Shown: positions 1 through 16,641 of the stretch, piece after piece | Position numbering within the stretch: the first letter of the stretch is position 1 | Layout of the letters: each line of letters opens with the position of its first letter | DNA from: Klebsiella planticola ATCC 33531 | Lineage (GTDB): Bacteria; Pseudomonadota; Gammaproteobacteria; Enterobacterales; Enterobacteriaceae | Direction: 5' to 3' | Assembly (NCBI RefSeq): GCF_000735435.1 | Contig: NZ_JMPP01000052.1 | Span: 1 to 64,000 of the forward strand | Length of the DNA: 64,000 bases | Notes under the pieces: generated by a model | Database searches by the model: none | Seen by the model: only the letters and a program-made list of their open reading frames with translations | Told to the model about the DNA's origin: nothing | Program-made: the position numbers and the translations under genes

Positions 1-807
1 ATCGAGTCGCTGGCAAAAGAGGTCCGCGAGCTGGAAGAGCATCACCGCGACATGCTCAACCCGAATACCACCCGCGAACTGACCCGACTGGTCAGCAACC
101 TTAACCGGCTGCTGACCAGCGAGCGCGAGCGCTACGACAAATATCGCACCACGCTGACCGATTTGACCCATAGTCTGAAAACGCCGCTGGCCGTGCTGCA
201 AAGCACCCTGCGTTCTTTGCGCGGCGAAAAGATTGACCTTAATGAAGCAGAACCGATCATGCTGGAGCAGATCAGCCGCATCTCGCAGCAAATCGGCTAC
301 TACCTGCATCGCGCCAGTATGCGCAGCGGCGGTACCCTGCTCAGCCGCGAACTGCACCCCATTGCGCCGCTGCTCGACAAGTTGACCTCGGCGTTGAACA
401 AGGTTTATCAGCGCAAAGGGGTCAATATCAGTCTTGATATCTCTCCGGAGATCAGCTTTGTCGGCGAACAGAATGATTTTATGGAAGTGATGGGCAACGT
501 GCTGGATAACGCCTGTAAATACTGCCTGGAATTTGTCGAAGTTTCCGTGCGTCAGACCAACGACAACCACCTGCATATTCTGGTGGAAGATGATGGCCCC
601 GGCATCCCGTTAAACCAGCGGACTGCCGTATTCGATCGCGGGCAACGTGCCGATACGCTGCGGCCAGGCCAGGGCGTGGGACTCTCCGTCGCCCGGGAGA
701 TCGTTGAGCAATACGATGGCGACATTCTCACCGGCGAAAGTCTGCTCGGCGGAGCCTGCATGGAGGTGGTTTTTGGCCGCCAGCTGCCCGACGATACGGA
801 AAGCTGA
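1..807 (+). CDS. phoQ: PhoQ sensor kinase, C-terminal part (5' truncated by window edge)
   Basis: This is the cytoplasmic part of PhoQ, the membrane histidine kinase that senses low Mg2+, acid pH and cationic peptides and phosphorylates PhoP. The reading frame is open from base 1, so the gene starts outside the window; 268 residues are visible against about 486 in E. coli. Visible parts are the end of the HAMP/linker helix, the H box (LTHSLKTPL, phospho-acceptor His at bases 169-171), the N box ([10 protein letters not shown]), and G1/G2 boxes ([17 protein letters not shown]) of the HATPase domain. It ends 124 bases before roxA. The phoP gene should lie to the left of the window. Confidence 0.95.
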
Positions 808-879
808 ATCGCCCCGCTTCCCACGCCTGGGCAAACTCTGTGACTACGAAGCACAATCGCCGTCAACAAAGAGGCAGTT

Positions 880-899
880 TGAAGCATGGCGTGTATAAT
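880..899 (+). promoter_or_regulatory. possible roxA promoter -10 element
   Basis: A perfect TATAAT lies at 894-899, about 33 bases before the roxA start. No good -35 hexamer sits at 17 bases spacing, so the promoter may be activator dependent or weak. Inference only. Confidence 0.4.
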
Positions 900-931
900 C
901 CCAAACAGACACCTGCTGTGGAATAAATAAA

Positions 932-2053
932 ATGGATTATCAATTAACGCTTAACTGGCCTGACTTTATCGAACGCTACTGGCAAAAACGCCCGGTAGTC
1001 CTCAAGCGCGGCTTCGCGAATTTCGTCGATCCCATTAGCCCGGATGAACTGGCCGGGCTGGCGATGGAAAGCGAAGTCGATAGCCGCCTGGTCAGCCATC
1101 AGGACGGGAAATGGCAGGTCAGCCATGGTCCTTTCGAAAGCTACGACCATCTGAGCGAAAACAACTGGTCGCTGCTGGTGCAGGCGGTGAATAACTGGCA
1201 CGAGCCGACGGCCGCGCTGATGCAGCCCTTCCGCGCTCTCCCCGACTGGCGTATTGATGATCTGATGATCTCTTTCTCCGTGCCCGGCGGCGGCGTAGGT
1301 CCCCATCTCGATCAGTACGACGTGTTTATCATCCAGGGAACCGGCCGGCGTCGTTGGCGCGTGGGCGATAAAGTCCCGATGAAGCAGCACTGCCCGCATC
1401 CAGACCTGCTGCAGGTGGATCCGTTCGACGCCATCATTGATGAAGAGATGGAGCCGGGCGATATTCTCTATATTCCGCCGGGATTCCCGCACGAGGGGTA
1501 TTCCCTGGAAAACTCGCTGAACTATTCGGTAGGCTATCGCGCGCCAAATGCCCGCGAGCTGTTCAGCGGCTTTGCCGACTATATTCTGCAACGTGAACTG
1601 GGTAGCCAGCGCTATGTCGATCCGGATGTGCCTTCCCGCGATCATCCGGCGGATATTCTGCCGGCTGAACTCGACCGTCTGCGCGATATGATGCTGGGGT
1701 TGATTAACCAGCCAGAGCATTTTAAGCAGTGGTTTGGGGAGTTTATCACCCAATCCCGCCATGAGCTGGACGTCGCTCCTGCTGAGCCGCCGTATCAGCC
1801 TGATGAGATTTACGACGCGCTACAACAGGGCGATCGCCTGGTGCGGCTGGGCGGGCTGCGCGTACTGCGTATCGATGGCGAGGTGTTCGTCAACGGCGAG
1901 AAGATTAATTCGCCGCACCGTCCGGCGCTGGACGCGCTGGCCACGCATCTGTCGCTTAACGCGGAACATTTTGGCGATGCGCTGGAAGATCCATCGTTCC
2001 TCGCAATGCTTGCCGCACTGGTCAACTGCGGCTACTGGTTCTTCGAGGACTGA
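932..2053 (+). CDS. roxA: RoxA, ribosomal protein uL16 arginine hydroxylase (JmjC-type oxygenase)
   Basis: RoxA (YcfD) is a 2-oxoglutarate/Fe(II) oxygenase that hydroxylates an arginine of ribosomal protein L16 (Arg81 in E. coli). The 373-residue length matches the family. The metal-binding facial triad is visible as His125 and Asp127 in GPHLDQYD and His187 in GFPHEGY, at the same numbers as E. coli. The N-terminal JmjC barrel is followed by a dimerisation region and a C-terminal winged-helix-like domain. The gene follows phoQ in the same direction, as in E. coli, and ends just before the REP array. Confidence 0.93.
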   Translation: MDYQLTLNWPDFIERYWQKRPVVLKRGFANFVDPISPDELAGLAMESEVDSRLVSHQDGKWQVSHGPFESYDHLSENNWSLLVQAVNNWHEPTAALMQPFRALPDWRIDDLMISFSVPGGGVGPHLDQYDVFIIQGTGRRRWRVGDKVPMKQHCPHPDLLQVDPFDAIIDEEMEPGDILYIPPGFPHEGYSLENSLNYSVGYRAPNARELFSGFADYILQRELGSQRYVDPDVPSRDHPADILPAELDRLRDMMLGLINQPEHFKQWFGEFITQSRHELDVAPAEPPYQPDEIYDALQQGDRLVRLGGLRVLRIDGEVFVNGEKINSPHRPALDALATHLSLNAEHFGDALEDPSFLAMLAALVNCGYWFFED

Positions 2054-2063
2054 GCCGCGAGAT

Positions 2064-2512
2064 GCCCGGTGGCGGCTCACGCCTTACCGGGCCTACGGTC
2101 CCGGCTCCGGGATTATGTACCACACCGCATATATTGCCCGGTGGCGGCTCGCGCCTTACCGGGCCTACGGTCCCGGCTCCGGAATTATGTAGCGCACTGC
2201 ATATATTGCCCAATGGCGGCTCGCGCCTTACCGGGCCTACGGTCCGGGCTCCGGGATTGTGTACCACACCTCATATATTGCCCGGTGGCGGCTCGCGCCT
2301 TACCGGGCCTACGGTCGGGCTCCGGGATTGTGTACCACACCGCATATATTGCCCGGTGGCGGCTCGCGCCTTACCGGGCCTACGGTCCGGGCTCCGGGAT
2401 TGTGTACCACACCGCATATATTGCCCGATGGCGGCTCGCGCCTTACCGGGCCTACGGGATGAATGTGAGTCTGGATTCTGTAGGCCGGGTAAGGCGTGAG
2501 CCGTCACCCGGC
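2064..2512 (+). repeat. REP array, left block: six direct REP units at about 72-base period plus one inverted unit
   Basis: Six near-identical 33-base REP palindromes (consensus begins gcccggtggcggctcgcgcc and ends ccgggcctac) start at 2064, 2136, 2208, 2280, 2351 and 2423. The roughly 39-base linkers between them are also conserved (ggtccgggctccggg...catatatt), so the repeating unit is the whole 72 bases. A seventh unit lies inverted at 2480-2512 and overlaps the end of the RAYT gene. REP units typically bind the RAYT transposase and affect mRNA decay or termination; here the array follows roxA. Confidence 0.9.
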
Positions 2513-3007
2513 GTTCTGTTTGCGCTCTCCGGCGTCAAAATCGGCAACGTCCCCAGCCCAATCCGGCGGATACAACCCGAGGCTCACATCACGATGAAAA
2601 GTTGAATACGGCCAGTCAATCACCCTCTTCACATAGCCATGTTTCACCGGATTGATGTAAACGTAATCCATATGCCGTCGGTAATCGTCCTCATGACGGA
2701 TCGCATGTTCCCAGAAACGGGGCTGCCAGACCTCGCGCATTCCCAGTTCGCGGGTGAATGTTTTTTTAATATCCCGCCAGCGTCCCGAATAATCGGTATC
2801 ACCTTCCGGTAGCGTCCAGATAGCGTGCATATGTTCGGGTAAAATAACCCACGCGTTAATCAGGAAGGGCTTTTTGCGTTTAATATCAGCTGTCACAGCG
2901 CGAAGTTGAGCGATATGGCGGGTCAAAAGATCGCTTTGCCGATTTCGCAAATTGACGGTAAAGAACCAGGTACCGCCAGGGATATGGCTGCGGCGGTAAT
3001 TTGACAT
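2504..3007 (-). CDS. REP-associated tyrosine transposase (RAYT)
   Basis: This is a single-copy HUH-type nuclease related to IS200/IS605 TnpA that acts on REP palindromes. The 167-residue protein shows the paired histidines of the HUH site (PEHMHAIW, His59 and His61), the catalytic-tyrosine region (HMDYVYINPVKHGY, Tyr115 likely) and the family motif DWPYSTFHR near 133. The start at 3007 is chosen because AGGGA lies about nine bases upstream; an in-frame upstream ATG at 3061 has no good site. It is flanked on both sides by REP units. The last codons (Ala-Gly-stop) come from the inverted REP at 2480-2512. Likely domesticated rather than a self-copying element. Confidence 0.88.
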   Translation of the reverse strand: MSNYRRSHIPGGTWFFTVNLRNRQSDLLTRHIAQLRAVTADIKRKKPFLINAWVILPEHMHAIWTLPEGDTDYSGRWRDIKKTFTRELGMREVWQPRFWEHAIRHEDDYRRHMDYVYINPVKHGYVKRVIDWPYSTFHRDVSLGLYPPDWAGDVADFDAGERKQNAG

Positions 3008-3071
3008 CAGAGGTTCCCTCCCCTTCCGCAGGTGCAGGTACGCAGTCTTTGCGAACCGCACGTTCGGTATT

Positions 3072-3240
3072 GCCCGGTGGCGGCTTACGCCTTACCGGGC
3101 CTACGGTCCGGGCTCCGGGATTATGTACCGCACCGCATATATTGCCCGGTGGCGGCTCACGCCTTACCGGGCCTACGGTCCGGGCTCCGGAATTATGTAG
3201 CGCACCGCATATATTGCCCGCTGCGGCTTACCGGGCCTAC
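3072..3240 (+). repeat. REP array, right block: three direct units
   Basis: Units start at 3072, 3144 and 3216 with the same 72-base period as the left block; the third is shortened inside its palindrome. Linkers match the left block: the first has gattatgtacc and the second aattatgtagc, in the same order as the linkers between left units 1-2 and 2-3. This suggests a duplicated three-unit segment around the RAYT gene. Confidence 0.88.
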
Positions 3241-3246
3241 CAATAG

Positions 3247-3272
3247 CCCGGATAAGCACCGCGCTATCCGGG
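3247..3272. terminator. 8-bp stem palindrome downstream of pepT
   Basis: Cccggata pairs with tatccggg across a 10-base loop, 13 bases past the pepT stop on the minus strand. There is no U tract, so it may be a REP remnant or an mRNA 3'-end stabiliser rather than an intrinsic terminator. Confidence 0.4.
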
Positions 3273-3284
3273 AGTTCTTCGGGA

Positions 3285-4514
3285 TCAGGAGCCGCGTTTT
3301 GCCGTTAGCTCCGCAATCCGCACAATCACCTGCACCGCCTTCTCCATCCCCTCCAGCGTGACGAATTCATGCTTGCCGTGATAGTTATAGCCGCCGGTAA
3401 ACAGGTTCGGACAGGGTAGCCCCATAAAAGAGAGCTGAGCGCCGTCGGTGCCGCCGCGAATCGGCTTCATTTGCGGTTCAATATCGCAATCCACCATCGC
3501 CTGGCGGGCAATCTCCACGACGTGCGGGTGCGACATCACTTTTTCATGCATATTGTAATAGCTGTCTTCAATCACCAGCTCAATATAGCAATCCGGATGC
3601 AGCCCCTTACCGACCTTTTTGGCAATTTCCATCATTTTGCGCTTGCGGGCCTCGAACTGCTTACGGTCAAAGTCGCGAATGATGTAGTGCATTTCTGCCC
3701 GGTCAACGCTGCCTTTCATGCTCGCCAGATGGTAAAAACCTTCGTAGCCTTCGGTCGTCTCCGGCACCTCATCGGCAGGGATTTCCGCATGAATCCGTGC
3801 CGCCAGCGACAGCGCATTCACCATCACCCCTTTTGCGGTGCCCGGATGGACATTGTTGCCCACGATCTTAATGGTCACCGATGCGGCGTTGAAGTTTTCA
3901 AACTCCAGCTCGCCCACTCCGCCGCCGTCAACGGTATAGGCCCAGCGGGCGTCAAACGCGGCGACATCAAAGTGCTTCGCCCCTTTCCCGACCTCTTCGT
4001 CAGGCGTGAAGGCCACGCGAATATCGCCGTGAGGAATATTTTTCGCCTTCAGCGTCGCCAGCGCGGTCATTATCTCGGCGATACCGGCTTTGTCATCGGC
4101 GCCAAGCAGCGTTTTGCCATCGGTGGTGATCAGCGTTTGCCCAAGCAACTGGTGCAGTACCGGGAACATCACCGGTGAGAGCACTTCATCGCCAATCCCA
4201 AGCGCGATATCACCGCCACGGTAGTTTTCAACGATTTGCGGGTTCACGTTTTTGCCGCTGAAATCCGGCGCCGTGTCGACGTGGGAAATAAAGCCAATGG
4301 GCGGAATAGCGCCGGCAACGTTGGCCGGAAGGGTTCCCATTACCGTCCCTTTCTCACTTAGCGTCACATTAACCAGTCCCATTTCTTCCAGCTGCGCCTG
4401 CAGCAGGCGTAACAGCTTCCACTGACCTTCCGTGCTTGGAACCTGACGCACGCCAGGCTTCGACTGTGTGTCCAGAGAAACGTACTGTAAAAAACGCTCA
4501 AGCAATTTATCCAT
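3285..4514 (-). CDS. pepT: Peptidase T (tripeptide aminopeptidase)
   Basis: PepT is a cytosolic dinuclear zinc aminopeptidase of the M20B family that removes N-terminal residues from tripeptides. The 409-residue protein matches E. coli PepT (408). Visible metal and catalytic motifs are [26 protein letters not shown] (catalytic Glu pair), YTVDGGG and the C-terminal NYHGKHEF. The start MDKLLERF at 4514 is preferred over an upstream ATG at 4550 because it matches the family N terminus and follows GAGGGTGG. It is divergent from potA, as in E. coli, where pepT is FNR-induced; I did not find a convincing FNR box here. Confidence 0.95.
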
Positions 4515-4661
4515 GTAGCCACCCTCATCTTTTGTGACAACATTATTCATAAGCCCGAATATACAAATATTGCGTCAGGTCATTTTTAGCCCGGCAAATA
4601 AAAATTTAATACATGAACCGGCGTATTGTTGTAAAGGTCGTGTATCCGTATGAGACAGGCA

Positions 4662-4690
4662 TTGGCGATCGCAAGCGATTGCCGTAGAAT
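4662..4690 (+). promoter_or_regulatory. predicted sigma70 promoter for potABCD
   Basis: A TTGGCG -35 (4662-4667) and a TAGAAT -10 (4685-4690) are separated by exactly 17 bases. It lies about 80 bases before the conserved potA ATG and is the best promoter-like pair in the pepT-potA gap. Confidence 0.65.
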
Positions 4691-4788
4691 GCTGGCCCTC
4701 GTTTATTATGCGCAACCGCAAAGGTGGTTAACCACAAACCCCGCAACGGTCAATCGTCCGCTGCGTCTACATGGGACAGAGTTAAAAA

Positions 4789-5907
4789 TTGAATATACAA
4801 CCGCGTTCGCTTTCGCCGCTGGTGCAACTGGCGGGAATTCGCAAAAGCTTTGATGGAAAAACGGTTATCTCAGATCTGAATCTGACCATCAACAACGGTG
4901 AGTTTCTCACCCTGCTTGGCCCCTCTGGCTGCGGTAAAACCACCGTTCTTCGTCTTATTGCCGGGCTTGAAAACGTCGACAGCGGGCGAATTCATCTCGA
5001 AGATCAGGACATCACTCATGTTCCGGCGGAAAACCGCCACGTCAATACCGTTTTCCAAAGCTACGCTCTGTTTCCCCATATGAGCGTATTCGAAAACGTC
5101 GCCTTCGGTCTGCGGATGCAGAAAACGCCGGCGGCGGAAATCACGCCTCGCGTCCTCGATGCGCTGCGCATGGTCCAGCTGGAGGAGTTTGCCCAACGCA
5201 AACCGCATCAGCTCTCCGGCGGTCAGCAGCAGCGGGTGGCTATCGCCCGGGCGGTGGTCAACAAACCGCGCCTGCTGCTGCTGGATGAGTCCCTGTCGGC
5301 GCTGGATTACAAGCTGCGTAAGCAGATGCAAAACGAGCTGAAGGCGTTGCAGCGTAAGCTGGGCATCACCTTCGTCTTCGTCACCCACGATCAGGAAGAG
5401 GCCCTGACCATGTCCGACCGCATCGTGGTCATGCGCGATGGGAAAATCGAGCAGGACGGCACGCCGCGTGAAATCTACGAAGAGCCGAAAAACCTGTTCG
5501 TCGCCAGTTTTATCGGCGAGATTAATCTGTTTAATGCTACGGTCATTGAACGCCTTGACGAGCAGCGCGTCCGCGCCAGCGTTGAAGGCCGCGAATGCAA
5601 TATCTACGTCAACTTCCCCGTCGAGCGGGATCAGCGGCTGAACGTTCTGCTGCGCCCGGAAGATCTGCGCGTCGATGAAGTCCACGACGGCAGCAACGCC
5701 GACGGACTGATCGGCTACATTCGCGAGCGCAACTACAAAGGCATGACGCTGGAGTCGGTTGTCGAACTGGAAAATGGCAAAATGGTGATGGTCAGTGAAT
5801 TCTTTAACGAAGACGATCCGGACTTTGATCACCCGCTTGACCAGAAAATGGCCATTAACTGGGTAGAAAGCTGGGAGGTTGTGCTGGCTGATGAAGAACA
5901 CCAGTAA
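4789..5907 (+). CDS. potA: Spermidine/putrescine ABC transporter ATPase PotA
   Basis: PotA is the ATPase that powers PotBC import of spermidine and putrescine. It has a Walker A (GPSGCGKT, about 44-51), the signature LSGGQ (142-146), Walker B (LLLLDE, 162-167) and a C-terminal regulatory TOBE-like domain. The E. coli start ATG-GGA-CAG-AGT is conserved at 4771, but the next codon is TAA instead of AAA. Translation must therefore begin downstream, most likely at the TTG at 4789 (codon 7 of the usual frame), giving 372 residues. The core protein is intact, so the gene is probably functional. The 3' end overlaps potB by 17 bases. Confidence 0.92.
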
Positions 5908-6748
5908 ATTCCAGAATGTGGTGATCGCCACTATCGTGGGTTGGCTTGTGCTGTTTGTGTTCCTGCCCAACCTGATGATCATCGGTACCAGCTTTTTGAC
6001 CCGCGACGACGCCAGTTTCGTCAAGATGGTCTTCACGCTGGATAACTACACGCGCCTGCTGGATCCGCTCTATTACGACGTGCTGCTGCACTCGCTTAAT
6101 ATGGCGCTGCTGGCGACCCTTGCCTGTCTGGCGCTCGGCTATCCTTTCGCCTGGTTTCTGGCCAGGCTGCCGGAAAAAGTGCGCCCGCTGCTGCTGTTTC
6201 TGCTGATCGTGCCGTTCTGGACCAACTCCTTGATCCGTATCTACGGGCTGAAAATCTTCCTCAGCACCAAAGGGTATCTCAACGAGTTCCTGCTGTGGCT
6301 GGGAGTGATTGATACGCCGCTGCGCATCATGTATACCCCGTCTGCGGTCATCATCGGACTGGTCTATATTCTGCTGCCATTTATGGTGATGCCGCTGTAC
6401 TCCAGTATTGAGAAGCTCGATCGTCCTCTGCTGGAAGCGGCAAGAGATCTGGGCGCCAGCAAGCTGCAAACCTTTATCCGCATCATTATTCCACTGACCA
6501 TGCCGGGTATTATTGCCGGCTGTCTGCTGGTGATGCTGCCGGCGATGGGGCTGTTCTACGTCTCGGATCTGATGGGCGGCGCCAAAAACCTGCTGATCGG
6601 TAACGTGATTAAGAGTCAGTTCCTGAATATCCGCGACTGGCCGTTTGGCGCCGCGACCAGCATTACGCTGACGCTGGTGATGGGCCTGATGCTGTTAATT
6701 TACTGGCGCGCGGCGCGTCTGTTGAATAGCAAGGTGGAACTCGAATGA
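5891..6748 (+). CDS. potB: Spermidine/putrescine ABC transporter permease PotB
   Basis: PotB is one of two inner-membrane permeases of the PotABCD importer. The 285-residue protein has about six membrane segments and the EAA loop that contacts PotA ([17 protein letters not shown]). The ATG at 5891 (MKNTSKFQ) is chosen over an in-frame TTG at 5879 because GGGAGG at 5873-5878 lies 12 bases before it and the N terminus matches the family. It overlaps potA and ends in an ATGA overlap with potC, so coupling of translation is likely. Confidence 0.93.
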
Positions 6749-7530
6749 TCGGTCGACTGCTGCGCGGCGGCTTTATGACCGCCATTTATGCTTACCTGTA
6801 TATTCCGATCATTATTCTGATCGTCAACTCGTTTAACAGTTCGCGCTTTGGTATTAACTGGCAGGGCTTTACCACTCAATGGTATAGCCTGTTGATGAAC
6901 AACGATAGTCTGCTGCAGGCCGCACAGCACTCGCTGACCATGGCGGTGCTGTCAGCCACCTTTGCAACGCTTATCGGGTCGCTGACCGCCGTCGCGCTGT
7001 ATCGCTATCGTTTTCGTGGTAAACCGTTCGTCAGCGGGATGCTGTTCGTGGTGATGATGTCGCCGGATATCGTCATGGCCATCTCCCTGCTGGTGCTGTT
7101 TATGCTGATCGGCATTCAGTTGGGGTTCTGGTCGCTGCTGTTTTCGCACATCACCTTCTGCCTGCCTTTCGTGGTGGTGACGGTCTATTCGCGCCTCAAA
7201 GGTTTTGATGTGCGGATGCTGGAGGCGGCGAAAGATCTGGGCGCCAGCGAGTTGACCATTCTGCGTAAAATTCTTCTGCCGCTGGCGCTGCCTGCCGTGG
7301 CCGCCGGATGGCTGCTGAGCTTTACGCTGTCGATGGATGATGTGGTGGTGTCGTCATTCGTGACCGGCCCGGGTTACGAGATCCTGCCGCTGAAGATCTA
7401 TTCGATGGTCAAAGTGGGCGTATCGCCGGAAGTGAATGCCCTGGCGACGATTCTGTTAGTTCTGTCGCTGGTGATGGTCATCGCCAGCCAATTGATTGCA
7501 CGTGATAAAACTCAGGGGACGTTAAAATGA
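6745..7530 (+). CDS. potC: Spermidine/putrescine ABC transporter permease PotC
   Basis: PotC is the second permease of the polyamine importer and forms a heterodimer with PotB. It has 261 residues (E. coli 264), about six hydrophobic segments and an EAA loop (EAAKDLGASELTILRK). Start and stop overlap its neighbours by four bases (ATGA at 6745 and 7527), typical of a tightly coupled operon. Confidence 0.95.
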   Translation: MIGRLLRGGFMTAIYAYLYIPIIILIVNSFNSSRFGINWQGFTTQWYSLLMNNDSLLQAAQHSLTMAVLSATFATLIGSLTAVALYRYRFRGKPFVSGMLFVVMMSPDIVMAISLLVLFMLIGIQLGFWSLLFSHITFCLPFVVVTVYSRLKGFDVRMLEAAKDLGASELTILRKILLPLALPAVAAGWLLSFTLSMDDVVVSSFVTGPGYEILPLKIYSMVKVGVSPEVNALATILLVLSLVMVIASQLIARDKTQGTLK

Positions 7531-8573
7531 AAAAATGGTCACGCCACCTGCTCGCAGCGGGCGCTCTGGTAATGGGTATCAGCGCCGCGCATGCGGACGA
7601 CAGCAAAACGCTCTATTTCTATAACTGGACCGAGTATGTGCCGCCGGGTCTGCTGGAGCAGTTCACCAAAGAGACCGGCATCAAGGTTATCTATTCCACT
7701 TACGAGTCGAATGAAACCATGTACGCCAAACTCAAAACCTACAAAGACGGCGCCTACGATCTGGTGGTGCCTTCCACCTATTTCGTCGACAAGATGCGTA
7801 AAGAAGGGATGTTGCAGAAGATCGATAAGAGCAAGCTGACGAACTTCAGCAACCTCGATCCGCAGATGCTGAACAAACCGTTCGATCCGGGTAACGATTA
7901 TTCCATTCCCTACATCTGGGGCGCCACCGCCATTGGCGTCAATAGCGATGCTATCGACCCGAAAACCGTCACCAGCTGGGCCGACCTGTGGAAACCAGAG
8001 TATAAGAGCAGCCTGCTGCTGACAGACGATGCGCGGGAAGTGTTCCAGATAGCCTTACGTAAGCTGGGCTATTCCGGCAATACCACCGACCCGAAAGAGA
8101 TTGAAGCCGCCTACAACGAGCTGAAAAAACTGATGCCTAACGTCGCGGCGTTTAACTCCGATAATCCGGCCAACCCGTATATGGAAGGGGAAGTGAATCT
8201 CGGCATGGTGTGGAACGGTTCGGCATGGGTTGCCCGCCAGTCGGGCACGCCGCTCGAGGTCGTCTGGCCGAAAGAAGGCGGGATCTTCTGGATGGATAGC
8301 CTGGCGATTCCGGCGAATGCGAAAAACGTCGACGGCGCGCTCAAGCTGATTAACTTCTTGCTGCGTCCGGAAGTGGCAAAACAGGTGGCGGAAACCATCG
8401 GCTACCCGACGCCAAATCTCGCCGCGCGTAAAATGCTCAGCCCGGAAGTCGCCAATGATAAGTCGCTCTACCCGGATGCGGACACTATCGCCAGGGGCGA
8501 ATGGCAAAACGATGTGGGCAGCGCCAGCACCCTGTATGAAGAGTATTATCAGAAGCTAAAAGCGGGCCGTTAA
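7527..8573 (+). CDS. potD: Spermidine/putrescine-binding periplasmic protein PotD
   Basis: PotD captures spermidine (and putrescine) in the periplasm and delivers it to PotBC. The 348-residue precursor has a Sec signal peptide (MKKWSRHLLAAGALVMG..., cleavage after AHA near 23). The mature part is a two-lobe binding protein with conserved pocket residues in the segments YNWTEYVP, PSTYFVDKM, MVWNGSAW and IFWMDSLAIP. It closes the potABCD operon and is followed by a hairpin terminator. Confidence 0.95.
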   Translation: MKKWSRHLLAAGALVMGISAAHADDSKTLYFYNWTEYVPPGLLEQFTKETGIKVIYSTYESNETMYAKLKTYKDGAYDLVVPSTYFVDKMRKEGMLQKIDKSKLTNFSNLDPQMLNKPFDPGNDYSIPYIWGATAIGVNSDAIDPKTVTSWADLWKPEYKSSLLLTDDAREVFQIALRKLGYSGNTTDPKEIEAAYNELKKLMPNVAAFNSDNPANPYMEGEVNLGMVWNGSAWVARQSGTPLEVVWPKEGGIFWMDSLAIPANAKNVDGALKLINFLLRPEVAKQVAETIGYPTPNLAARKMLSPEVANDKSLYPDADTIARGEWQNDVGSASTLYEEYYQKLKAGR

Positions 8574-8581
8574 TCCCGTCA

Positions 8582-8607
8582 GGCGGAGCCCCGGCTCCGC
8601 CGTTGTT
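8582..8607 (+). terminator. intrinsic terminator after potD
   Basis: Ggcggagcc pairs with ggctccgcc, followed by a short T-rich stretch (gttgttt), nine bases after the potD stop. The remaining bases to 8825 hold no gene I can support. Confidence 0.7.
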
Positions 8608-8825
8608 TCGTCCTTCCCCCGCTCTACTCCGCAACACTGACACTCATACCAGCGCAGAATTTCCGCCACGAGGCTAATCATGCTGGCGACGGTATGACTG
8701 CTGCCGAGGCGGGGAAATCGGGTCGCTATTATCATCCCGCGTAAGCCGCCGGGTGCGGCCATTCCTCCGCGATTCAACTCTGGGTATTAGCACCCGCACG
8801 TTGATTGGGGCACCCGGAGGCCGGC

Positions 8826-10463
8826 TTATCCCGCATCGCGCCCATCCGCCATCAGAATCTGACCAAACTCGGCGCGCAGCCGGTTTTTCAGGACTTTACC
8901 GGTGGCGCTGACGGGGAGCGCATCGATGAACAGAATCCGGTCCGGAAGCTGCCATTTCGGCACTCGTGTCTGGTACCAGGCCAACAGCTCCGGCTCTTCA
9001 ATTTCGCCATCTTCTGCCCTGACACACAGCAGCACCGGACGCTCATCCCAGCGCGGATGCTGCGCCGCAATCGCCGCCGCGCTGCGAATCGCCGGATGGG
9101 CAAGCGCAATATTCTCCAGCTCGACCGTTGAGATCCACTCTCCGCCGGACTTAATGATATCTTTCGCCCGATCGTGAATCACCAGGTAGCCATTCTCATC
9201 AACCGTGCCAATATCACCGGTGTCGAACCAGCCATCATCGGTCAACGCGGTATCGGGACGACCGTAGTAATTTGCCGCCACCCAATGGCCGCGCACCTGC
9301 AGATAGCCCTGACTTTCGCCATCGTTGGCCAGCGCCTGGCCCTCAGCATCCACCACCCGCAGATCGATGCCAAAAATGACGCGCCCCTGACCGTGCCCCA
9401 GTTTTTGCTGTGCCTCCTGAGGCAGGGCTTTATGTTTGCTCAGCGGCGTGTTGATGGTGCCGATGGGCGAAGTCTCGGTCATCCCCCAGGCATGAATCAG
9501 CTCAATACCATAATCGCGGCGGAAGACCTCAATCATCGACGGGGGCAGCGCCGACCCGCCGACAAAAGATCGTTTAAAACAGGGCAGGCGAACATCCGAT
9601 TTACGCAGCGCGGCAAGCAATCCTGCCCAGATGACCGGAACGCCGAAGGCGACGCTGACCTGCTCCTCGCTCAACAGCCGCAGCAGGCTGTCGCCGTCCA
9701 GATTCGGCCCCGGCAGAACCAGGCGAGCGCCGGCCATCGCGGCAATAAAAGGCGTGCCCCAGGCATTGACGTGGAACATCGGCACTACCGGCAACAGCGT
9801 GTCCTGCGCCGAGATACCGGCCGCATCCGGCTGATTGCCGCTCAGCGCATGCAGTACCAGCGAGCGGTGGGTATTCAGCACCCCTTTCGGCTTGCCGGTG
9901 GTCCCCGAGGTATAGCACAGCGACGCCGGCGAATGTTCGCTCACCTCGGGCCAGCGATACGCCGGATCCGCTGCAGCGATCAGCTCCTCAAAAAACAGCA
10001 GCGAGTCCAGCGCGGCGAGCGCCTCCTCATTCCGCGGCTCCAGCAGAACAAAATGCTTTACCGTTGGCAACTGGGGCCGCAGCGCGCAGATAAGCGGCAG
10101 AAAGGTGTCGTCGAAAAACAGAATCTCGTCCGCGGCATCATTGATGATAAACGCGAGGTGTTCCGTGGACAGGCGTGGGTTGATGGTATGCGTCACCCAT
10201 CCCCCAGCACTGATGCCAAAATAGATCTCCAGATGGCGGCGATTATTCCACGCCAGCGTGCCGCAGCGGGCGCCTGTCGGGAGCCCCAGCCGGCTCATGG
10301 CGGAAGCCAGACGCAGGGCGTTATCCGCCACCTCTCCCCAGCTACTGTACTCTCTTCCCCCTAACGTCCCGACCGAAACAATTTCCGTATCGCTATGATA
10401 GCGCGCGGCATGCTCAATGAGCGTCCGGGTCGTTAAATCCTGATACATCATCGGTGGATGCAT
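8826..10463 (-). CDS. AMP-binding fatty acyl-CoA synthetase-like protein
   Basis: This is a member of the adenylate-forming (ANL) superfamily, closest by eye to medium/long-chain acyl-CoA synthetases of the AlkK type. It would activate a carboxylic acid with ATP and transfer it to CoA. Seen in its 545 residues: P-loop-like YTSGTTGKPKG (about 184-194), GMTETSP, GWFDTGDIG, the hinge KDIIKSGGEW and the C-terminal catalytic lysine in SATGKVLKNR. The start at 10463 has GGAG eight bases upstream; a longer frame up to 10577 lacks a convincing site. The neighbours do not reveal the substrate. It is absent from this locus in E. coli K-12 as I recall it. Confidence 0.82.
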   Translation of the reverse strand: MHPPMMYQDLTTRTLIEHAARYHSDTEIVSVGTLGGREYSSWGEVADNALRLASAMSRLGLPTGARCGTLAWNNRRHLEIYFGISAGGWVTHTINPRLSTEHLAFIINDAADEILFFDDTFLPLICALRPQLPTVKHFVLLEPRNEEALAALDSLLFFEELIAAADPAYRWPEVSEHSPASLCYTSGTTGKPKGVLNTHRSLVLHALSGNQPDAAGISAQDTLLPVVPMFHVNAWGTPFIAAMAGARLVLPGPNLDGDSLLRLLSEEQVSVAFGVPVIWAGLLAALRKSDVRLPCFKRSFVGGSALPPSMIEVFRRDYGIELIHAWGMTETSPIGTINTPLSKHKALPQEAQQKLGHGQGRVIFGIDLRVVDAEGQALANDGESQGYLQVRGHWVAANYYGRPDTALTDDGWFDTGDIGTVDENGYLVIHDRAKDIIKSGGEWISTVELENIALAHPAIRSAAAIAAQHPRWDERPVLLCVRAEDGEIEEPELLAWYQTRVPKWQLPDRILFIDALPVSATGKVLKNRLRAEFGQILMADGRDAG

Positions 10464-10735
10464 GGCTGTTACTCCGCGACAGGCTGATATGTTGTGTAAG
10501 TGATGCGGTCCGGTGTGCACCCGAACTCTCACTAAATCTGGCAACAACCCGGGCAGCCAACCAAAACAGATGTGCAAAATTTAGCGTTCACGCACAAGAA
10601 TCCTCGTCTGGCAGCGGGGAATGTGATGGGAAATGGCTTTTCACGCGCGGCGGTAGCGCGCAGAAGAGGGGCCGACGCAGTGAAGAATGCGCGAGTGGTA
10701 CGCTCGTCGCATTCAACTCGCGCCGGCGCAATGTT

Positions 10736-11455
10736 TCAGTTGCCAGGCTCTGGCTGCGGGACCGTAAACTTATATCCTTTTCCCCATACCGTCAGAATAA
10801 ACTCCGGCTCCGCCGGATTATCTTCTATTTTCATCCTCAGCCGATTAATGTGCGTGTTGACCGTATGCTCATACCCTTCATGCTGATAGCCCCACACCTG
10901 GTTGAGCAAACTGATGCGGGAAAAGACCTTATCGGGATGCCTGGCAAAGAACCACAGCAGGTCGAACTCGCGCGGCGTCAGGTCAAGCGCGAGATCGCGC
11001 AAACGCGCTTCGCGCGCAAGCGGGTCGATGGTCAGCCGGTCAATGTGCAGTATGCCGGCGTCCTGCATCAGATTCTGGGCCATGGCCTCCTGACGACGGA
11101 AGAGCGCCTTCACTCGCGCCACCAGCTCAAGCATCGAAAAGGGTTTCGCGAGGTAGTCATCTGCCCCGAGTTCCAGCCCCAGGACACGATGGACTTCACT
11201 TGCGCGCGCGCTGATTATCACTATCGGCATGTAGCTTGCCATGGTGCGGGCATGCCGGCAGATCTCCAGACCGTCGATGCCCGGTAACATCAGGTCGAGG
11301 ATCAGCGCGTCCCAGCCGCCCTGCCTGACCATCGCCAGCCCGCCGGTGCCTTCAGCAGCATGGCTGATTTCATAGCCCTCCTCGCATAAATGCAGCTGCA
11401 GCAGCTCCGCGATATTTTCATCATCTTCAATAATTAATACTTTTTTGGGCTTCAT
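10736..11455 (-). CDS. OmpR/PhoB-family response regulator, no adjacent kinase
   Basis: A 239-residue two-domain regulator. The receiver domain shows the acidic pair Asp11-Asp12, phospho-acceptor Asp54 (LILDLMLPG), and the lysine in YLAKPFS. The C-terminal winged helix has the usual DLTPREFDLLWFFARHP and VWGKGYKF signatures. The ATG at 11455 has AAGG at good distance. It is divergent from the cytochrome b/molybdoprotein/MxKDx unit and probably regulates it (inference from arrangement). No histidine kinase gene lies beside it; the 272 bases towards the acyl-CoA synthetase start hold no recognisable kinase. Confidence 0.88.
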   Translation of the reverse strand: MKPKKVLIIEDDENIAELLQLHLCEEGYEISHAAEGTGGLAMVRQGGWDALILDLMLPGIDGLEICRHARTMASYMPIVIISARASEVHRVLGLELGADDYLAKPFSMLELVARVKALFRRQEAMAQNLMQDAGILHIDRLTIDPLAREARLRDLALDLTPREFDLLWFFARHPDKVFSRISLLNQVWGYQHEGYEHTVNTHINRLRMKIEDNPAEPEFILTVWGKGYKFTVPQPEPGN

Positions 11456-11465
11456 CGCTGCCGCC

Positions 11466-11475
11466 TTATTGCGTT
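11466..11475 (-). promoter_or_regulatory. shared 10-base leader element, copy upstream of response regulator
   Basis: On the minus strand this reads AACGCAATAA, ending 10 bases before the regulator ATG. The identical decamer precedes the divergent cytochrome gene (11576-11585). Function unknown. Confidence 0.45.
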
Positions 11476-11488
11476 CTGTCAGAGACAG
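11476..11488. promoter_or_regulatory. small inverted repeat, possible operator
   Basis: CTGTC-AGA-GACAG is a perfect 5-bp inverted repeat between the divergent regulator and cytochrome b genes. It could be an operator for the regulator; this is inference. Confidence 0.3.
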
Positions 11489-11575
11489 TTTAGACGACAT
11501 TCGCATCGCGAGTTATCACATTTAATTTAACTTTTCGTGATACATCGGCGAACAGATTCAGGCCACACTGTTATT

Positions 11576-11585
11576 AACGCAATAA
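11576..11585 (+). promoter_or_regulatory. shared 10-base leader element, copy upstream of cytochrome b gene
   Basis: AACGCAATAA ends 11 bases before the ATG at 11597, mirroring the copy before the divergent response regulator. Confidence 0.45.
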
Positions 11586-11596
11586 CCGGGAATATC

Positions 11597-12211
11597 ATGA
11601 TGAACAGTCTCTCAAATCAGATTAAGCCCGCGACCATTCATCCTCTGTGGTTAAGAATTTGCCACTGGGTTAATGCGCTTTCGATATTAATTATGGTGAC
11701 CAGCGGCTGGCGTATTTATAACGCATCACCGTTGTTTAATTTTTATATTCCTGATGCACTGACTCTTGGCGGTTGGCTGGCAGGCGCATTGCAATGGCAT
11801 TTTTCAGCAATGTGGTTGTTTGCTCTTAACGGTGTATTTTACCTGCTGATGAATCTTGTCAGCGGGCGCTTAAAAAAACAATTCTGGCCTCTGTCGCCGC
11901 AAGGAGTAATTGACGATTTTATTTCCGCACTACGCGGCAGGCTGACACATGACAATCCCGGCCATTATAACTACGTCCAGAAACTGGCCTATCTCTTCGT
12001 CATGCTCGATAGCATTATTCTGGCGTTATCCGGTCTGGTTATCTGGAAGTCGGTGCAGTTTCCGCTGCTACGAATCTTACTCGGGGGATATGACAACGCA
12101 CGGGTGATTCATTTCTTTGCGATGTCCGCACTGATGGGATTTGTCGTTATTCATCTGCTGATGGTGCTGCTGGTCCCGAAAACGTTACTGGCCATGCTCC
12201 GCGGACGATAA
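11597..12211 (+). CDS. Membrane b-type cytochrome (cytochrome b561/YedZ-like partner)
   Basis: An integral membrane protein of about 204 residues with four hydrophobic segments, resembling the b-type cytochrome domain of Ni/Fe-hydrogenase and thiosulfate reductase cytochromes. Candidate haem ligands are His15/His23 in the first segment (HPLWLRICHWVNAL), a His before the second (QWHFSAMW) and histidines in the fourth (VIHFFAM...VIHLLMV). It probably passes quinol electrons to the periplasmic molybdoprotein encoded next, as MsrQ does for MsrP. The ATG at 11597 is followed directly by a second ATG; either may be used. Ten bases separate it from the next gene. Confidence 0.82.
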   Translation: MMNSLSNQIKPATIHPLWLRICHWVNALSILIMVTSGWRIYNASPLFNFYIPDALTLGGWLAGALQWHFSAMWLFALNGVFYLLMNLVSGRLKKQFWPLSPQGVIDDFISALRGRLTHDNPGHYNYVQKLAYLFVMLDSIILALSGLVIWKSVQFPLLRILLGGYDNARVIHFFAMSALMGFVVIHLLMVLLVPKTLLAMLRGR

Positions 12212-12221
12212 GGAAAATACA

Positions 12222-13010
12222 GTGAACAATCATAAAAATTCATTCTCCGCCGCCGACAAGGCCATCGTAGTCCAGGAGGCGAGCCGGGAAATTAACAAGC
12301 GGCTCTCATCGGAAGGTCGTCGCCGCTTTATCAGGCAGGGGTTAACTTTTGGCGGTCTGATGCTGTTAAGCGGTTGCGATATCAGCAATAACAGCGAGGT
12401 CGAAACAACCTTAAGCCAGATCTCACAATTTAACGATCGTATTCAACGCTGGTTATTTAATGCTAATAACCTTGCGCCGGTTTATCCCGAAAGTATGATC
12501 GCTCGCCCTTTCCCGTTTAATGCATTTTACAGCGAGGATCAGGCGCCCGCGATCGACGGCAGCGATTATCGTCTTGAAGTTTCTGGATTAGTGGCTGACA
12601 AACGCCCATGGACACTGGCCGAACTGCATAAGATGGCGCAGGTCAGCCAGATCACGCGACATATTTGTGTGGAAGGATGGAGCGCCATCGGTAAATGGGG
12701 TGGCGTTCCGTTTGCCCTATTCCTCAAACGTATCGGCGCCGATCTGAGCGCCAGCTACGTCAGCTTTCGCTGTGCTGATAATTATTATACCAGTATCGAT
12801 ATGGCCACTGCGATCCATCCGCAGACGATTATGGCATTAACCTACGATGGCCAGATATTACCGCGTAAATATGGTTTCCCGATGAAGTTAAGAATTCCGA
12901 CCAAGCTCGGTTATAAAAACCCGAAGCATATTATGTCAATTGAAGTCACCAACCGCTACCCCGGCGGCTACTGGGAAGACCAGGGTTATAACTGGTTCGC
13001 TGGTAGTTAA
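12222..13010 (+). CDS. Periplasmic molybdopterin-dependent oxidoreductase, predicted Tat lipoprotein
   Basis: The 262-residue protein has an oxidoreductase molybdopterin-binding domain of the sulfite oxidase/YedY (MsrP) type; Cys149 in HICVEGWSAIGKWGG is the expected Mo ligand. The N terminus carries a twin-arginine motif (GRRRFIRQG, about 32-40), a hydrophobic stretch and a lipobox (LLSGC, Cys52), so it is likely exported folded by Tat and anchored by lipid. It starts with GTG at 12222 after AAGGAAA. The likely role is reduction of an oxidised periplasmic compound, perhaps methionine sulfoxide, using electrons from the upstream cytochrome. Substrate is inference. About 30 residues precede the twin arginines, an unusually long n-region. 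Confidence 0.85.
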   Translation: MNNHKNSFSAADKAIVVQEASREINKRLSSEGRRRFIRQGLTFGGLMLLSGCDISNNSEVETTLSQISQFNDRIQRWLFNANNLAPVYPESMIARPFPFNAFYSEDQAPAIDGSDYRLEVSGLVADKRPWTLAELHKMAQVSQITRHICVEGWSAIGKWGGVPFALFLKRIGADLSASYVSFRCADNYYTSIDMATAIHPQTIMALTYDGQILPRKYGFPMKLRIPTKLGYKNPKHIMSIEVTNRYPGGYWEDQGYNWFAGS

Positions 13011-13059
13011 TTCGTGGTCGTCATCATCCGTTATTCATACAACATGAAGGAATTGCAAA

Positions 13060-13320
13060 ATGAAAAAGATTAATACGTTACTGATGTGCTCTGCTTTACT
13101 TTTCGGTATGTCCAGCGCCTACGCTGCCGATAATATGGCTAAAGATAATATGGCCAAAGATAACATGGGCAAGATGTCTCACGACTGCACAAAAGATGGC
13201 ATGAAAAAAGAGTGTATGTCTAAAGATGGCATGTCGAAGGATAAAATGAGCAAAGACAGCATGGCCAAAGATGCCATGTCGAAAGACAAGATGGGCAAAG
13301 ACACGATGGGTAAACAATAA
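13060..13320 (+). CDS. Periplasmic pentapeptide MxKDx repeat protein, methionine rich
   Basis: An 86-residue precursor with a Sec signal peptide (cleavage after AYA, residue 22). The 64-residue mature part is a run of pentapeptides of the form M-x-K-D-x. I count 12 methionines, two cysteines and many Lys/Asp in it, and no aromatic residues. It belongs to the MxKDx repeat family. A similar peptide, MrpX of Azospira, is a sacrificial hypochlorite scavenger regenerated by a YedY-type reductase. Its position 49 bases after the molybdoprotein gene supports the same role here (inference). AAGGA precedes the ATG, and a strong terminator follows. Confidence 0.88.
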   Translation: MKKINTLLMCSALLFGMSSAYAADNMAKDNMAKDNMGKMSHDCTKDGMKKECMSKDGMSKDKMSKDSMAKDAMSKDKMGKDTMGKQ

Positions 13321-13343
13321 CCGCGCAGCCCGACGACGAGGTC

Positions 13344-13383
13344 AAAGGGGTGGCCTGCCGGTTGGGCAGGTAACCCCTTTTTA
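13344..13383 (+). terminator. intrinsic terminator after MxKDx gene
   Basis: Aaaggggt pairs with acccctttt, with an inner cctgcc/ggcagg helix and a run of T at the end. It closes the cytochrome b-molybdoprotein-MxKDx unit. Confidence 0.85.
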
Positions 13384-13490
13384 TCCCCTCATCCTGCCAC
13401 CGTAGGATCGCCAGCAGGGGCCCTCGAAACACCGGGAAACCGCTCTCCTCCGACCTGAGCTTTAGCAATCAAAGCCGTAGCGTTACGGGA

Positions 13491-14315
13491 TCAGAGATCT
13501 TTCAACAGCCGGTCGACGAATGCCGGAACAACCTCACTCGCCAGACCGTAGTGTTTTTCGGCAAATTCGCTGCCGACCTGGCTGGGCTCGAGGTTAAGTT
13601 CCACGGTATGCGCCCCCTGCAGACGGGCTTCGTGCACGAAACCTGCCGCCGGGTAAACGTGCCCGGAAGTGCCAATGGCGATGAAGATATCGGCATCGGC
13701 CAGCGCGCTGTAAATGTCATCCATCCCCAGCGGCATCTCGCCAAACCAGACCACGTGCGGACGCAGCGGCGCCGGGAACTGGCAGCAGTGGCACTTATCT
13801 TCCGCCGTGACGTCTCCGGTCCACTCCAGTACCTGTCCGCTCCACGAACAGCGCACCTTCAACAGCTCGCCGTGCATATGAATCACCCGACGGTTTCCCG
13901 CGCGTTCGTGCAGGTTATCAATGTTCTGGGTAACCAGCACAAATCGATCGCCCAGCGCCGCTTCCAGCCGCGCCAGCGCCTGATGTGCCGCATTCGGCGC
14001 TATCTCCGGGCTTTGCAACTGCCGGCGACGGGCGTTATAAAACGCCTGCACCAGCGCAGGGTCGCGGGCGAATCCTTCCGGCGTCGCCACATCTTCCACC
14101 CGGTGCTCTTCCCACAAACCATCGGCCGCGCGAAACGTTTTAATCCCGGACTCCGCTGAAATGCCCGCGCCGGTCAGCACCACAACCCTGGGTTTATCTG
14201 TTGTTTCCACAGCCGCCTTATCCTCTTTAAAAAAAATCCGCTGGCGCAGACGTTCACGCAAGCGACGTTTATTGCGACGAAAACGGCTCAATCGGTGTAA
14301 GCGGCGCGACAACAT
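13491..14315 (-). CDS. cobB: NAD-dependent protein deacylase CobB (sirtuin)
   Basis: CobB removes acetyl and succinyl groups from lysines using NAD+, for example reactivating acetyl-CoA synthetase. The 274 residues show [10 protein letters not shown], the [12 protein letters not shown] motif, catalytic His in HMHGEL, zinc cysteines (VRCSWSG and CHCC) and the Tyr/Arg pair of desuccinylases in AFYNARRR. The basic N-terminal extension ([12 protein letters not shown]...) of the long form is present. The methionine used to start the short isoform in E. coli/Salmonella is replaced by Thr (VETTDKPRV). It lies 14 bases after nagK, so the two probably form an operon. Confidence 0.95.
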
Positions 14316-14329
14316 AGCTCCCCCTGTGG

Positions 14330-15241
14330 TTAATGAGTCAAATGAAGGAAGGCCGCACCGCGCATGCCTCCGGCATCGCCATGGCGCGCACGTTCAATAC
14401 GCGGTACCCGGGCAACGGGAAGTAAATGTCGCGGCAGGCGTTGCGCCAGCCCTTCGCTTATGGCAGTAAAGTTAGACAATCCTCCGCCAAGCACCAGCAG
14501 ATCCGGATCAACAATCGTCAGAATATTACCCAGACAGACCGCCAGCAGGTCAAGATAGCGCTCGACGTGCTCGTGCGCCCGCGCATCGCCCTGCTGCCAG
14601 AGCGCCACGATTTCGGGAGAGGTTAAGGTGTGTTGATAGAAATGTTCATAGAGCCAGGCAAAACCGCGGCCGGAGAGATAGTTTTCAATGCAGCCCAGCT
14701 GACCGCAGCCGCAGCGGGTGAGCGGGAAATCACGCCCCACGACCTCCAGCGCATCCACCGGCAGCCGGATATGGCCAAATTCACCGGTAATATAGCTATG
14801 TCCGGTAATCGATTTACCGTTGAGGACCAGGCCGCCGCCCACCCCGGTGCCGAGAATCAGCCCCATCACCAGCGGGTATTGCGTAAATTCATCGTCCCAG
14901 GCTTCGGAGAGAGCAAAGCAGTTGGCGTCGTTATCCAGACGGACTTCACGCCCGAGCCGGGCGCTCAGATCGCTGCGCAGCGACTGGCCGCTGGCAGCGG
15001 GGACGTTGGCGGCATACAGCGTGCCGTCCGCGGTTTCCGGCATCCCCGGAATACCAATCCCTACCGTCCCCTGACAGTCAAAGCGGCCGTCAGCTTCACG
15101 GACCAGCGCCTCTACCGCCTGTAGAAAGTCGGCATAACTCTCCTTCGGCGTGGCAACGCGTTTTTCCCACTGCAATCGCCGCGCTTTATCAAACACGCCC
15201 AGCGCTATTTTGCTGCCGCCAATATCAAATCCGTAGTACAT
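14330..15241 (-). CDS. nagK: N-acetyl-D-glucosamine kinase NagK
   Basis: NagK phosphorylates GlcNAc recovered from cell-wall recycling to GlcNAc-6-phosphate. It is a 303-residue ROK-family kinase with an N-terminal ATP site ([12 protein letters not shown]), catalytic Asp in [17 protein letters not shown], and the zinc motif CGCGQLGC. The start at 15241 is preferred over an ATG six bases upstream because AGAGGA then lies at normal spacing and the length equals E. coli NagK. It is followed closely by cobB. The link with nagZ in the same window is functional (both in murein recycling). Confidence 0.95.
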
Positions 15242-15302
15242 AGCCATTCCTCTTTACTGACCGAAAAGGTCAGGACGTAAAGAGTGGATAACAGAGATTC
15301 TT

Positions 15303-15370
15303 GTAGGTCCGCGCAAACGAAGCGCCACCGGGCGCAATGTCAGGTGGCAGCTTCTCCTTACCCGACCTAC
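15303..15370. repeat. inverted pair of degenerate REP units (BIME-like)
   Basis: An inverted unit (15303-15333, gtaggtccgcg...gccaccgggc) faces a direct unit (15339-15370, caggtggcagc...cccgacctac) between lolE and nagK. Both resemble the REP consensus of the roxA-pepT array with several changes. Confidence 0.6.
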
Positions 15371-15396
15371 CGGTTCATCCCCCGCAATCCACTGAA

Positions 15397-16641
15397 TTAC
15401 TGGCCACTCAGCACCCTCGCCGGGTCAATGCGGCTGGCGCGGCGGGCGGGATACCAGCTGGCCAGCAAACTCAGCAACAGTGCCGTCACCAGCACATAAA
15501 TAACATCCAGCCAGTGCAGTTCAGACGGCAGGAAGTCAATAAAATAGATGTCGCCGGACAAGAATTTGTGCCCGATCAGGTATTCAAGGCCGTTGATGAT
15601 GGACGTCAGATTTAGCGCACAAATGACGCCGATCGCCACACCAATCAGGCTCCCGACCGAACCGGCAAGCAAACCATACCAGACAAAAATGGCGCGGATC
15701 AGGCCATCTTTCGCCCCGAGCGTACGCAGTACCGCAATATCGCTGCTTTTATCTTTCACCGCCATCACCAGGGTGGAAACGATGTTAAAGCAGGCCACGC
15801 CGATCACCAGCACCATCGCGAGGTACATAATGGCGCGGATCATCTGAATATCACGATACATATAACCGTAGGTTCCGATCCAGCTCTTGATGTAAACGTA
15901 GCTGTTGGTCACTTCGCCGGCATCACGCACCAGCGTGTTGGCGTGGAACACATCGGTGACTTTAATCGCAATCCCGGTCACGCTGCCAGCCATATCCAGA
16001 TACTGCTGGGCATCGCTCATCGGGATCATCGCAAAACTGTGATCGAGCTGGCCGCTGAGCTGCAAAATCCCGGTCACATGCAGCCTGACGCGTTTCGGCT
16101 GCAGGAGCTGATGCTCGGAATCAGAGTTGGGGATCATGATGGAAACCCAGTCGCCCTGCTTCACGTGCAGCGCATCCGCCACCCCTTTACCGAGAATGAC
16201 CTGCTGTTCGCCGGCTTTAAAATTAGCCCACGCGTTATTCTGGACAAACTGAGGCAGCGAACTCAGGCGGCTTTCCTGCTGCGGATCGACACCCTTGACC
16301 TGAATGGCGCGCATGTTGCTGCCGCTCTCCACCAGCCCGGTGAAATTAATGTACGGCGCCGCGGCAACGATCCCTTTAACTTTTTCCACCTTCGCCAGCG
16401 CGTCGTTCCAGTTGGTCCACGGCTGCTTCACCGGCTCGATTTCGCCATGCGGAACCACCGCCAGAATGCGGTTGTTCAGCTCACGTTCAAAACCGTTCAT
16501 TGCGCTGAGGCCGACGATCAATACCGCCACCCCGAGCGCAATCCCGATGGTTGAAATCACCGAAATCAGCGACACCATGCCGCCACGTCGCCGTCCGCGG
16601 CTAAAACGCAGGGCAATCAATAACGATAACGGAGAAGTCAT
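15397..16641 (-). CDS. lolE: Lipoprotein-releasing ABC transporter membrane subunit LolE
   Basis: LolE forms with LolC the membrane part of the LolCDE complex that extracts outer-membrane lipoproteins and hands them to LolA. The 414 residues equal the E. coli length. There is an N-terminal membrane segment, a large periplasmic domain, and three C-terminal membrane segments of the MacB/FtsX type ending in [17 protein letters not shown]. The start codon shares one base with the lolD stop. Last gene of lolCDE; nagK follows after the REP pair. Confidence 0.95.

Follow-up and report, generated by a model that had tools for sequence, protein, structure and literature searches.

We analysed a window of 64,000 nucleotides (nt) from Klebsiella planticola ATCC 33531 (assembly GCF_000735435.1, contig NZ_JMPP01000052.1, positions 1 to 64,000; genome of 5.67 Mb), in which the gene of an OrhR-type response regulator lies on the minus strand, divergent from three plus-strand genes encoding a cytochrome b, a molybdoprotein and a secreted methionine-rich peptide. 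A conserved DNA site, called here the OrhR box, lies upstream of the cytochrome gene, and the unit is closed by a terminator. An earlier note on this DNA, made from the letters alone, had described these four parts and the terminator at 11456-13383. All of them were present, as indicated by the Pfam and TIGR02953 matches, the 12 Met among the 64 residues of the mature peptide and a hairpin of -31.6 kcal/mol; that interval takes in the operon together with the intergenic region before it and leaves out the regulator gene. The features of the unit are as follows.

10736-11506, minus strand: OrhR-type response regulator (OmpR family), assigned by Pfam domains; probable start ATG at 11455
11507-11545, plus strand: OrhR box, with the core at 11513-11540 being TTATCACATTTAATTTAACTTTTCGTGA
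11597-12211, plus strand: cytochrome b of the b561/Ni-hydrogenase type with four long helices (PF01292)
12222-13010, plus strand: MsrP-like molybdopterin lipoprotein exported by twin-arginine translocation (Tat), GTG start (PF00174)
13060-13320, plus strand: secreted MxKDx methionine-rich peptide (TIGR02953), mature part about 13126-13317
13344-13382, plus strand: rho-independent terminator, assigned by fold energy and U run

The same divergent order and the same operator are found in the OrhK/OrhR-C3566-C3567-C3568 system of Escherichia coli CFT073, to which the window proteins were 63% (regulator), 54 and 61% (cytochrome, in two pieces), 61% (molybdoprotein) and 41% (peptide) identical. According to the 2021 study of that uropathogenic strain, OrhK phosphorylates OrhR, OrhR binds the c3566 promoter, the cytochrome, molybdoprotein and methionine-rich peptide are induced by H2O2, and C3566 and C3567 give protection both against tert-butyl hydroperoxide and in macrophages (PMC8550376). 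The authors contrast this inducer and this challenge with the chlorine species met by MsrPQ (PMC8550376). As a side observation, RefSeq flags the CFT073 cytochrome gene at the c3566 position (L217, 2752-3350) as frameshifted, although c3566 deletion mutants showed a phenotype in the published work (PMC8550376).

The box core matched a 28-bp pattern with no mismatch and was the sole match in this genome at up to two mismatches. Across 72 promoters including that of the window, which ranged from Enterobacteriaceae to Pseudomonas and Achromobacter, the box was near-invariant, with many positions invariant. The CFT073 promoter contained it with one mismatch, and the TCACA-N15-TGTGA repeat, in the wording of the paper, lies inside it (PMC8550376). 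The pattern was rare in the genus (5 of 20 genomes at up to two mismatches, with one match for the backward-pattern control) and occurred in 31 of 246 genomes of the family at up to one mismatch, with one site each and again one control match.

The surroundings were surveyed at 80 loci, the best among 585 related places. In 80/80 of them the cytochrome gene adjoined the molybdoprotein gene, and a methionine-rich peptide frame followed in 76/80, so the arrangement is not due to chance, and the co-occurrence of the genes elsewhere that the earlier note had asked about was borne out. The four exceptions were L034, in which the contig stops about 50 bases past the molybdoprotein gene, L041, L048 and L080. 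The box was found at up to two mismatches in 71 of the 80 loci. Where kinase and regulator genes were both adjacent (50 loci), it was present in 49, the remaining site (L036) having four mismatches; where no regulator gene was adjacent (30 loci), it was present at up to one mismatch in 22 and not in 8. A remote regulator orthologue with 67-70% identity was encoded in the genomes of all 22 boxed loci of the latter group and of 3 of the 8 unboxed ones (Fisher p 4e-4, kinship ignored), a count in which the 41% regulator match of the L040 genome (E 9e-52) was not taken as an orthologue and the L034 genome holds its regulator beside another copy of the operon. Plasmid-borne versions were also observed. 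One (L084), with kinase matches, occurred in 73 of 5426 E. coli genomes, with 76/76 places on plasmids. Another (L085) lies on the 6.4-kb plasmid p7_KVTMDU of Klebsiella variicola, which has the cytochrome, molybdoprotein and MxKDx peptide genes and no annotated regulator; the box was not found on this plasmid, its best site having six mismatches.

The regulator contained the Response_reg and Trans_reg_C domains, and the segment HEGYEHTVNTHINRLR, located where the recognition helix is expected, was identical in 8/8 aligned regulators. Its scores were below the cut-offs of the HprR model (154.8 of 353 bits) and of the heavy-metal subfamily (171.8 vs 279.2 bits). No histidine kinase gene was adjacent to it, a feature on which the earlier note did not remark. 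The search for a kinase remnant near the regulator, using a Buttiauxella kinase as the query, gave another kinase at 145-777 as the sole strong match within positions 1-16000 of the window, and a remnant was rejected. The only close OrhK relative of the genome is encoded on contig C55, where it adjoins a second OrhR-like regulator (the core regulator), and therefore the control of the window operon in this organism is probably exerted in trans. One close OrhK relative per genome (E up to 1e-80), beside a regulator, was found in 20/20 genomes of the genus. Genome G009 likewise had the window-type regulator without an adjacent kinase, and in G007 the adjacent regulator was also gone, with the box and the operon kept. 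A close kinase was present in 19 of 20 genomes tried, and the exception, G278 (L044), was also without the regulator and the box.

The core regulator may itself be connected to the same site. A variant of the box was found in its upstream region in 20/20 genomes of the genus, taken in each locus as the best gapped match to the consensus of the operon boxes and not to a consensus drawn from the core-regulator loci themselves. The score was reached by 0/40 shuffles in each of the 20 loci, and the distance to the regulator was 98-100 nt in the 13 of 20 loci in which it was measured. Some of the conservation of this site may be coding, since the site runs partly into the end of the adjacent rlmC-like gene.

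The box and the peptide were found to be separable from the reductase cassette. Box sites were collected in the genus at up to two mismatches and in the family at up to one mismatch, giving 35 distinct sites, 34 of which were read (G170 was left out). Of these, 27 preceded the cytochrome and molybdoprotein genes, 5 preceded a gene for a methionine-rich secreted peptide without them (G014, G018, G253, G045 and G104), and 2 preceded neither. The peptide frame of G018 reaches the end of the contig, beyond which the sequence was not seen. At L172 (G057) the box match is probably due to chance, and at L151 (G041) the kinase, the regulator and the box are kept and fimbrial-looking genes follow. G253, G045 and G104 encoded a related reductase cassette elsewhere in the genome, led by a DUF5666-like protein, and G014 and G018 gave merely weak reductase matches (34%) in MsrP-looking frames of 353 residues. 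Sister cassettes with a DUF5666-like protein, a cytochrome and a molybdoprotein were found at L102, L226, L227, L228 and L237. Their cytochromes and molybdoproteins were 48-55% and 53-60% identical to those of the window and encoded in the same order; the cassettes differed in being led by a secreted DUF5666-like protein, whose 26.8 bits fall slightly short of the cut-off of 27, and no peptide match and no box were found in the stretches examined. In G014 (L140, 6555-9595) an orphan OrhR-type regulator gene adjoins genes for MsrA, a DsbD/thioredoxin-like protein and a Tat-signal-bearing MsrB, and the methionine-rich peptide gene stands alone; the search for a box before msrB-msrA in this genome was negative, with four mismatches at the best site. 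Homologues of msrA and msrB beside the sigma-factor version of the system are mentioned in the perchlorate-island study (PMC4623255). The distribution suggests that the peptide is what stays constant in the output, with a reductase partner that can be exchanged. A wider idea, which we put forward tentatively and hold to be possible rather than probable, is that a transferable one-box OrhR regulon has the peptide, and not the reductase, as its unvarying product, which would serve as a rechargeable periplasmic methionine buffer. Its recharger would be interchangeable, being the molybdenum-cofactor (Moco) lipoprotein with the b561 cytochrome, the thiol-driven MsrA/MsrB or the housekeeping MsrP, and one kinase could serve in trans both several regulators and operons that lie far away.

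The cytochrome matched PF01292 (E 8e-28) as its sole Pfam match, and its NCBIfam matches were to hydrogenase and formate-dehydrogenase cytochromes, below cut-off, with none to the MsrQ model. His15, His23, His68, His118, His172 and His186 were kept in 83/83 cytochromes, and the protein is probably di-haem. The structure model consisted of four long helices (mean pLDDT 84), and its nearest solved structure was HyaC of hydrogenase-1 (6g94), matched weakly (E 1.5e-3). MsrQ of this genome, taken from an internal Met onwards, matched PF01794 and scored 183.4 bits with the MsrQ model NF003831, and BLAST between the two proteins gave no significant similarity (E 0.078). From these family assignments, MsrQ membership was ruled out and the cytochrome is classed by sequence as a hydrogenase/b561-type protein, in agreement with the other cytochrome type proposed in the earlier note. 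The plasmid-borne E. coli counterpart is also a PF01292 protein, like that of the window. The CFT073 paper gives C3566 as 23.1% identical to MsrQ (PMC8550376). A narrow literature search found no paper that joins MsrP with 'cytochrome b561'.

The molybdoprotein matched PF00174 (E 8e-30); its twin-arginine motif is at residues 33-34, and residue 52 is the cysteine of a lipobox. Cys52 and Cys149, the latter being the presumed molybdenum ligand, were invariant in a 25-row alignment of homologues (25/25), and the C-V-E-x-W-S motif around Cys149 is common to this protein and the genome's own MsrP, which is encoded by a separate gene (498.7 bits). The pattern search for the Tat signal and lipobox failed in 8 of 83 automatically called molybdoproteins, several of them with over-long starts, and these 8 were kept in that count. 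The NCBIfam scores for MsrP, SorA and SoxC were 82.5, 47.5 and 41.8 bits, each under its cut-off. In the profile search of solved structures, 1xdq, which we take to be E. coli YedY/MsrP, came top (5.9e-17) and SorA second (1.3e-11). Judged from these scores, the protein appears to be MsrP-like without being MsrP, with MsrP as the nearest among the known families tested. A grouping with the SorA/SoxC sulfite dehydrogenases, which would have told against the earlier note, was rejected on the curated scores (47.5 of 600 and 41.8 of 420 bits), the profile and fold searches both placing MsrP nearest. PruR, a pterin-binding protein of the same fold and presumably a small domain without the enzymatic cysteine, was also rejected, with Cys149 present and invariant and with both MsrP and SorA ranked above PruR when folds were searched. 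Because the structure model of the molybdoprotein is weak (mean pLDDT 64), the fold matches count as support only. A third PF00174 match of the genome, at 57897-58139 of contig C27 (L003, 31.2 bits), is possibly a PruR-like pterin-binding protein.

The peptide scored above the cut-off of TIGR02953 (penta_MxKDx; 55.1 vs 41 bits), and 80 mature peptides of the family had medians of 14 Met, 75 residues, 2 Cys and 2 His. The ratios of nonsynonymous to synonymous substitution (dN/dS) against G009 were 0.165 for the regulator, 0.19 for the cytochrome, 0.14 for the molybdoprotein and 0.11 for the peptide, and the four genes are under purifying selection. Decayed copies with an intact peptide gene were also seen, at L103 (6738-7410, G003), in which the molybdoprotein gene is broken, and at L223 (G012), whose genome gave no molybdoprotein match at 1e-60.

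Taken with the CFT073 counterpart, these results make it likely that the unit is an operon of the OrhR-C3566-C3567-C3568 kind, inducible by oxidants and serving methionine-based defence in the periplasm. The phosphorylated OrhR-type regulator would bind the box upstream of the cytochrome gene. Most likely, the cytochrome would draw electrons from quinol and hand them to the membrane-anchored molybdenum lipoprotein, which would act as a methionine sulfoxide reductase on periplasmic proteins and on the co-expressed methionine-rich peptide, and the peptide would be a sacrificial sink. The control in trans may involve the C55 kinase acting on the local regulator, the core regulator acting on the same box, or both.

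MsrPQ/HprSR of E. coli likewise combines a membrane cytochrome with an exported Moco protein that has the same cysteine motif, and the window unit differs from it in the PF01292 cytochrome, the lipoprotein form of the molybdoprotein, the regulator below the HprR cut-off and the extra peptide. The Azospira SigF/NrsF-YedYZ-MrpX and Brucella BcrS/AbcS-BcrXQP systems resemble it in the methionine-rich secreted peptide and the Moco methionine sulfoxide reductase, and in contrast to the two-component regulator of the window they are under sigma/anti-sigma control and respond to hypochlorous acid (HOCl) (PMC4623255, PMC8315932). The earlier note had read the unit as a response-regulator version of the MrpX idea. 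Control by the regulator fits that reading; the signal published for the CFT073 relative is H2O2 and not the hypochlorite that the note proposed, and the idea is largely known, since the two-component version published in 2021 already has the methionine-rich peptide and the comparison with MrpX (PMC8550376). What the present computational analysis adds is the wiring with the kinase elsewhere, the box, the separable modules and the cytochrome type.

Several observations weigh against the defence operon as described. The molybdoprotein is far under the curated MsrP cut-off NF003767 (82.5 vs 207 bits), its structure model is weak, and the literature search turned up no enzyme assay of it or of C3567. 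The core-regulator sites show at least eight mismatches when compared with the pattern without gaps. The association of box and regulator leans on Pseudomonas and is uncorrected for kinship; moreover, the genome of L041 has the regulator and the operon and no box, and that of L060 has the regulator and merely a six-mismatch site. The 2021 paper terms the system putative (PMC8550376). The role of the peptide is unsupported in the CFT073 work, because the kinase or regulator mutant grew again with constitutive c3566-c3567 alone, and section 10 of that study describes no peptide mutant (PMC8550376).

Three other explanations were weighed. The local orphan regulator may be independent of a kinase, using small phosphodonors or cross-talk, or may be decaying, with the operon expressed without specific sensing. 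This is unlikely: the absence of an adjacent kinase gene and the further loss of the adjacent regulator in G007 speak for it, but the alignment shows intact receiver and DNA-binding segments, the regulator had the dN/dS of 0.165 against G009, and the box was kept in G007. The peptide could instead be a copper or silver binder whose methionine repeats chelate Cu(I), so that the operon would answer envelope metal stress and not oxidants. Methionine-rich periplasmic peptides can bind Cu(I), and the family peptides have the median of two Cys and two His. In addition, the sister cassette at L102 (cytochrome 48% and molybdoprotein 58% identical) adjoins genes for a CopR/CusR-type regulator and a CopS/CusS-type kinase, both over the heavy-metal subfamily cut-offs. 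However, the window regulator falls under the heavy-metal cut-off, the sister cassettes examined were without a peptide match or box, and the published inducer of the CFT073 relative is H2O2 (PMC8550376); we regard metal binding as quite unlikely.

The least probable of the three is that the molybdoprotein is a sulfite dehydrogenase or a reductase of another S- or N-oxide and the peptide merely co-regulated. SorA and animal sulfite oxidase have the same fold, the cytochrome is of a general quinone-linked type, and the literature search turned up no assay of any member, all of which would be compatible with such a substrate. The profile scores and the active-site cysteine motif nevertheless favour MsrP, the peptide accompanies the reductase genes in nearly all of the surveyed loci, and in G014 the regulator and methionine-rich peptide genes adjoin secreted-looking MsrA/MsrB genes, though without a box before these.

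Regarding the setting, the unit is flanked on one side by a potD-like gene and an AMP-binding ligase gene and on the other side by a Sir2-family (cobB-like) gene; potD and cobB are the names that we assume for these neighbours. Between this potD/ligase pair and cobB, the window unit has a strong terminator and its kinase elsewhere. In CFT073, by contrast, the kinase gene is adjacent, and the system, located on a pathogenicity island, is transcribed together with a haemolysin operon (PMC8550376). The ligase gene (8826-10577, minus strand) lies between the potD-like gene and the regulator and adjoins the operon in G009 and G007 too. The terminator has its hairpin (z -4.1 vs shuffles) at about 13344-13380, with a U run behind it, and was absent from the output of a simple terminator scan. 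Neither Rfam (at gathering scores) nor a tRNA search gave matches in the window.

These results place the oxidant-resistance system of a pathogenicity island within a much wider family and correct the assignment of its cytochrome partner, which is not of the MsrQ type. The box provides an exact DNA site for reading the regulon in other genomes, and the natural variants with no adjacent kinase, no adjacent regulator or no reductase make the role of the peptide directly testable.

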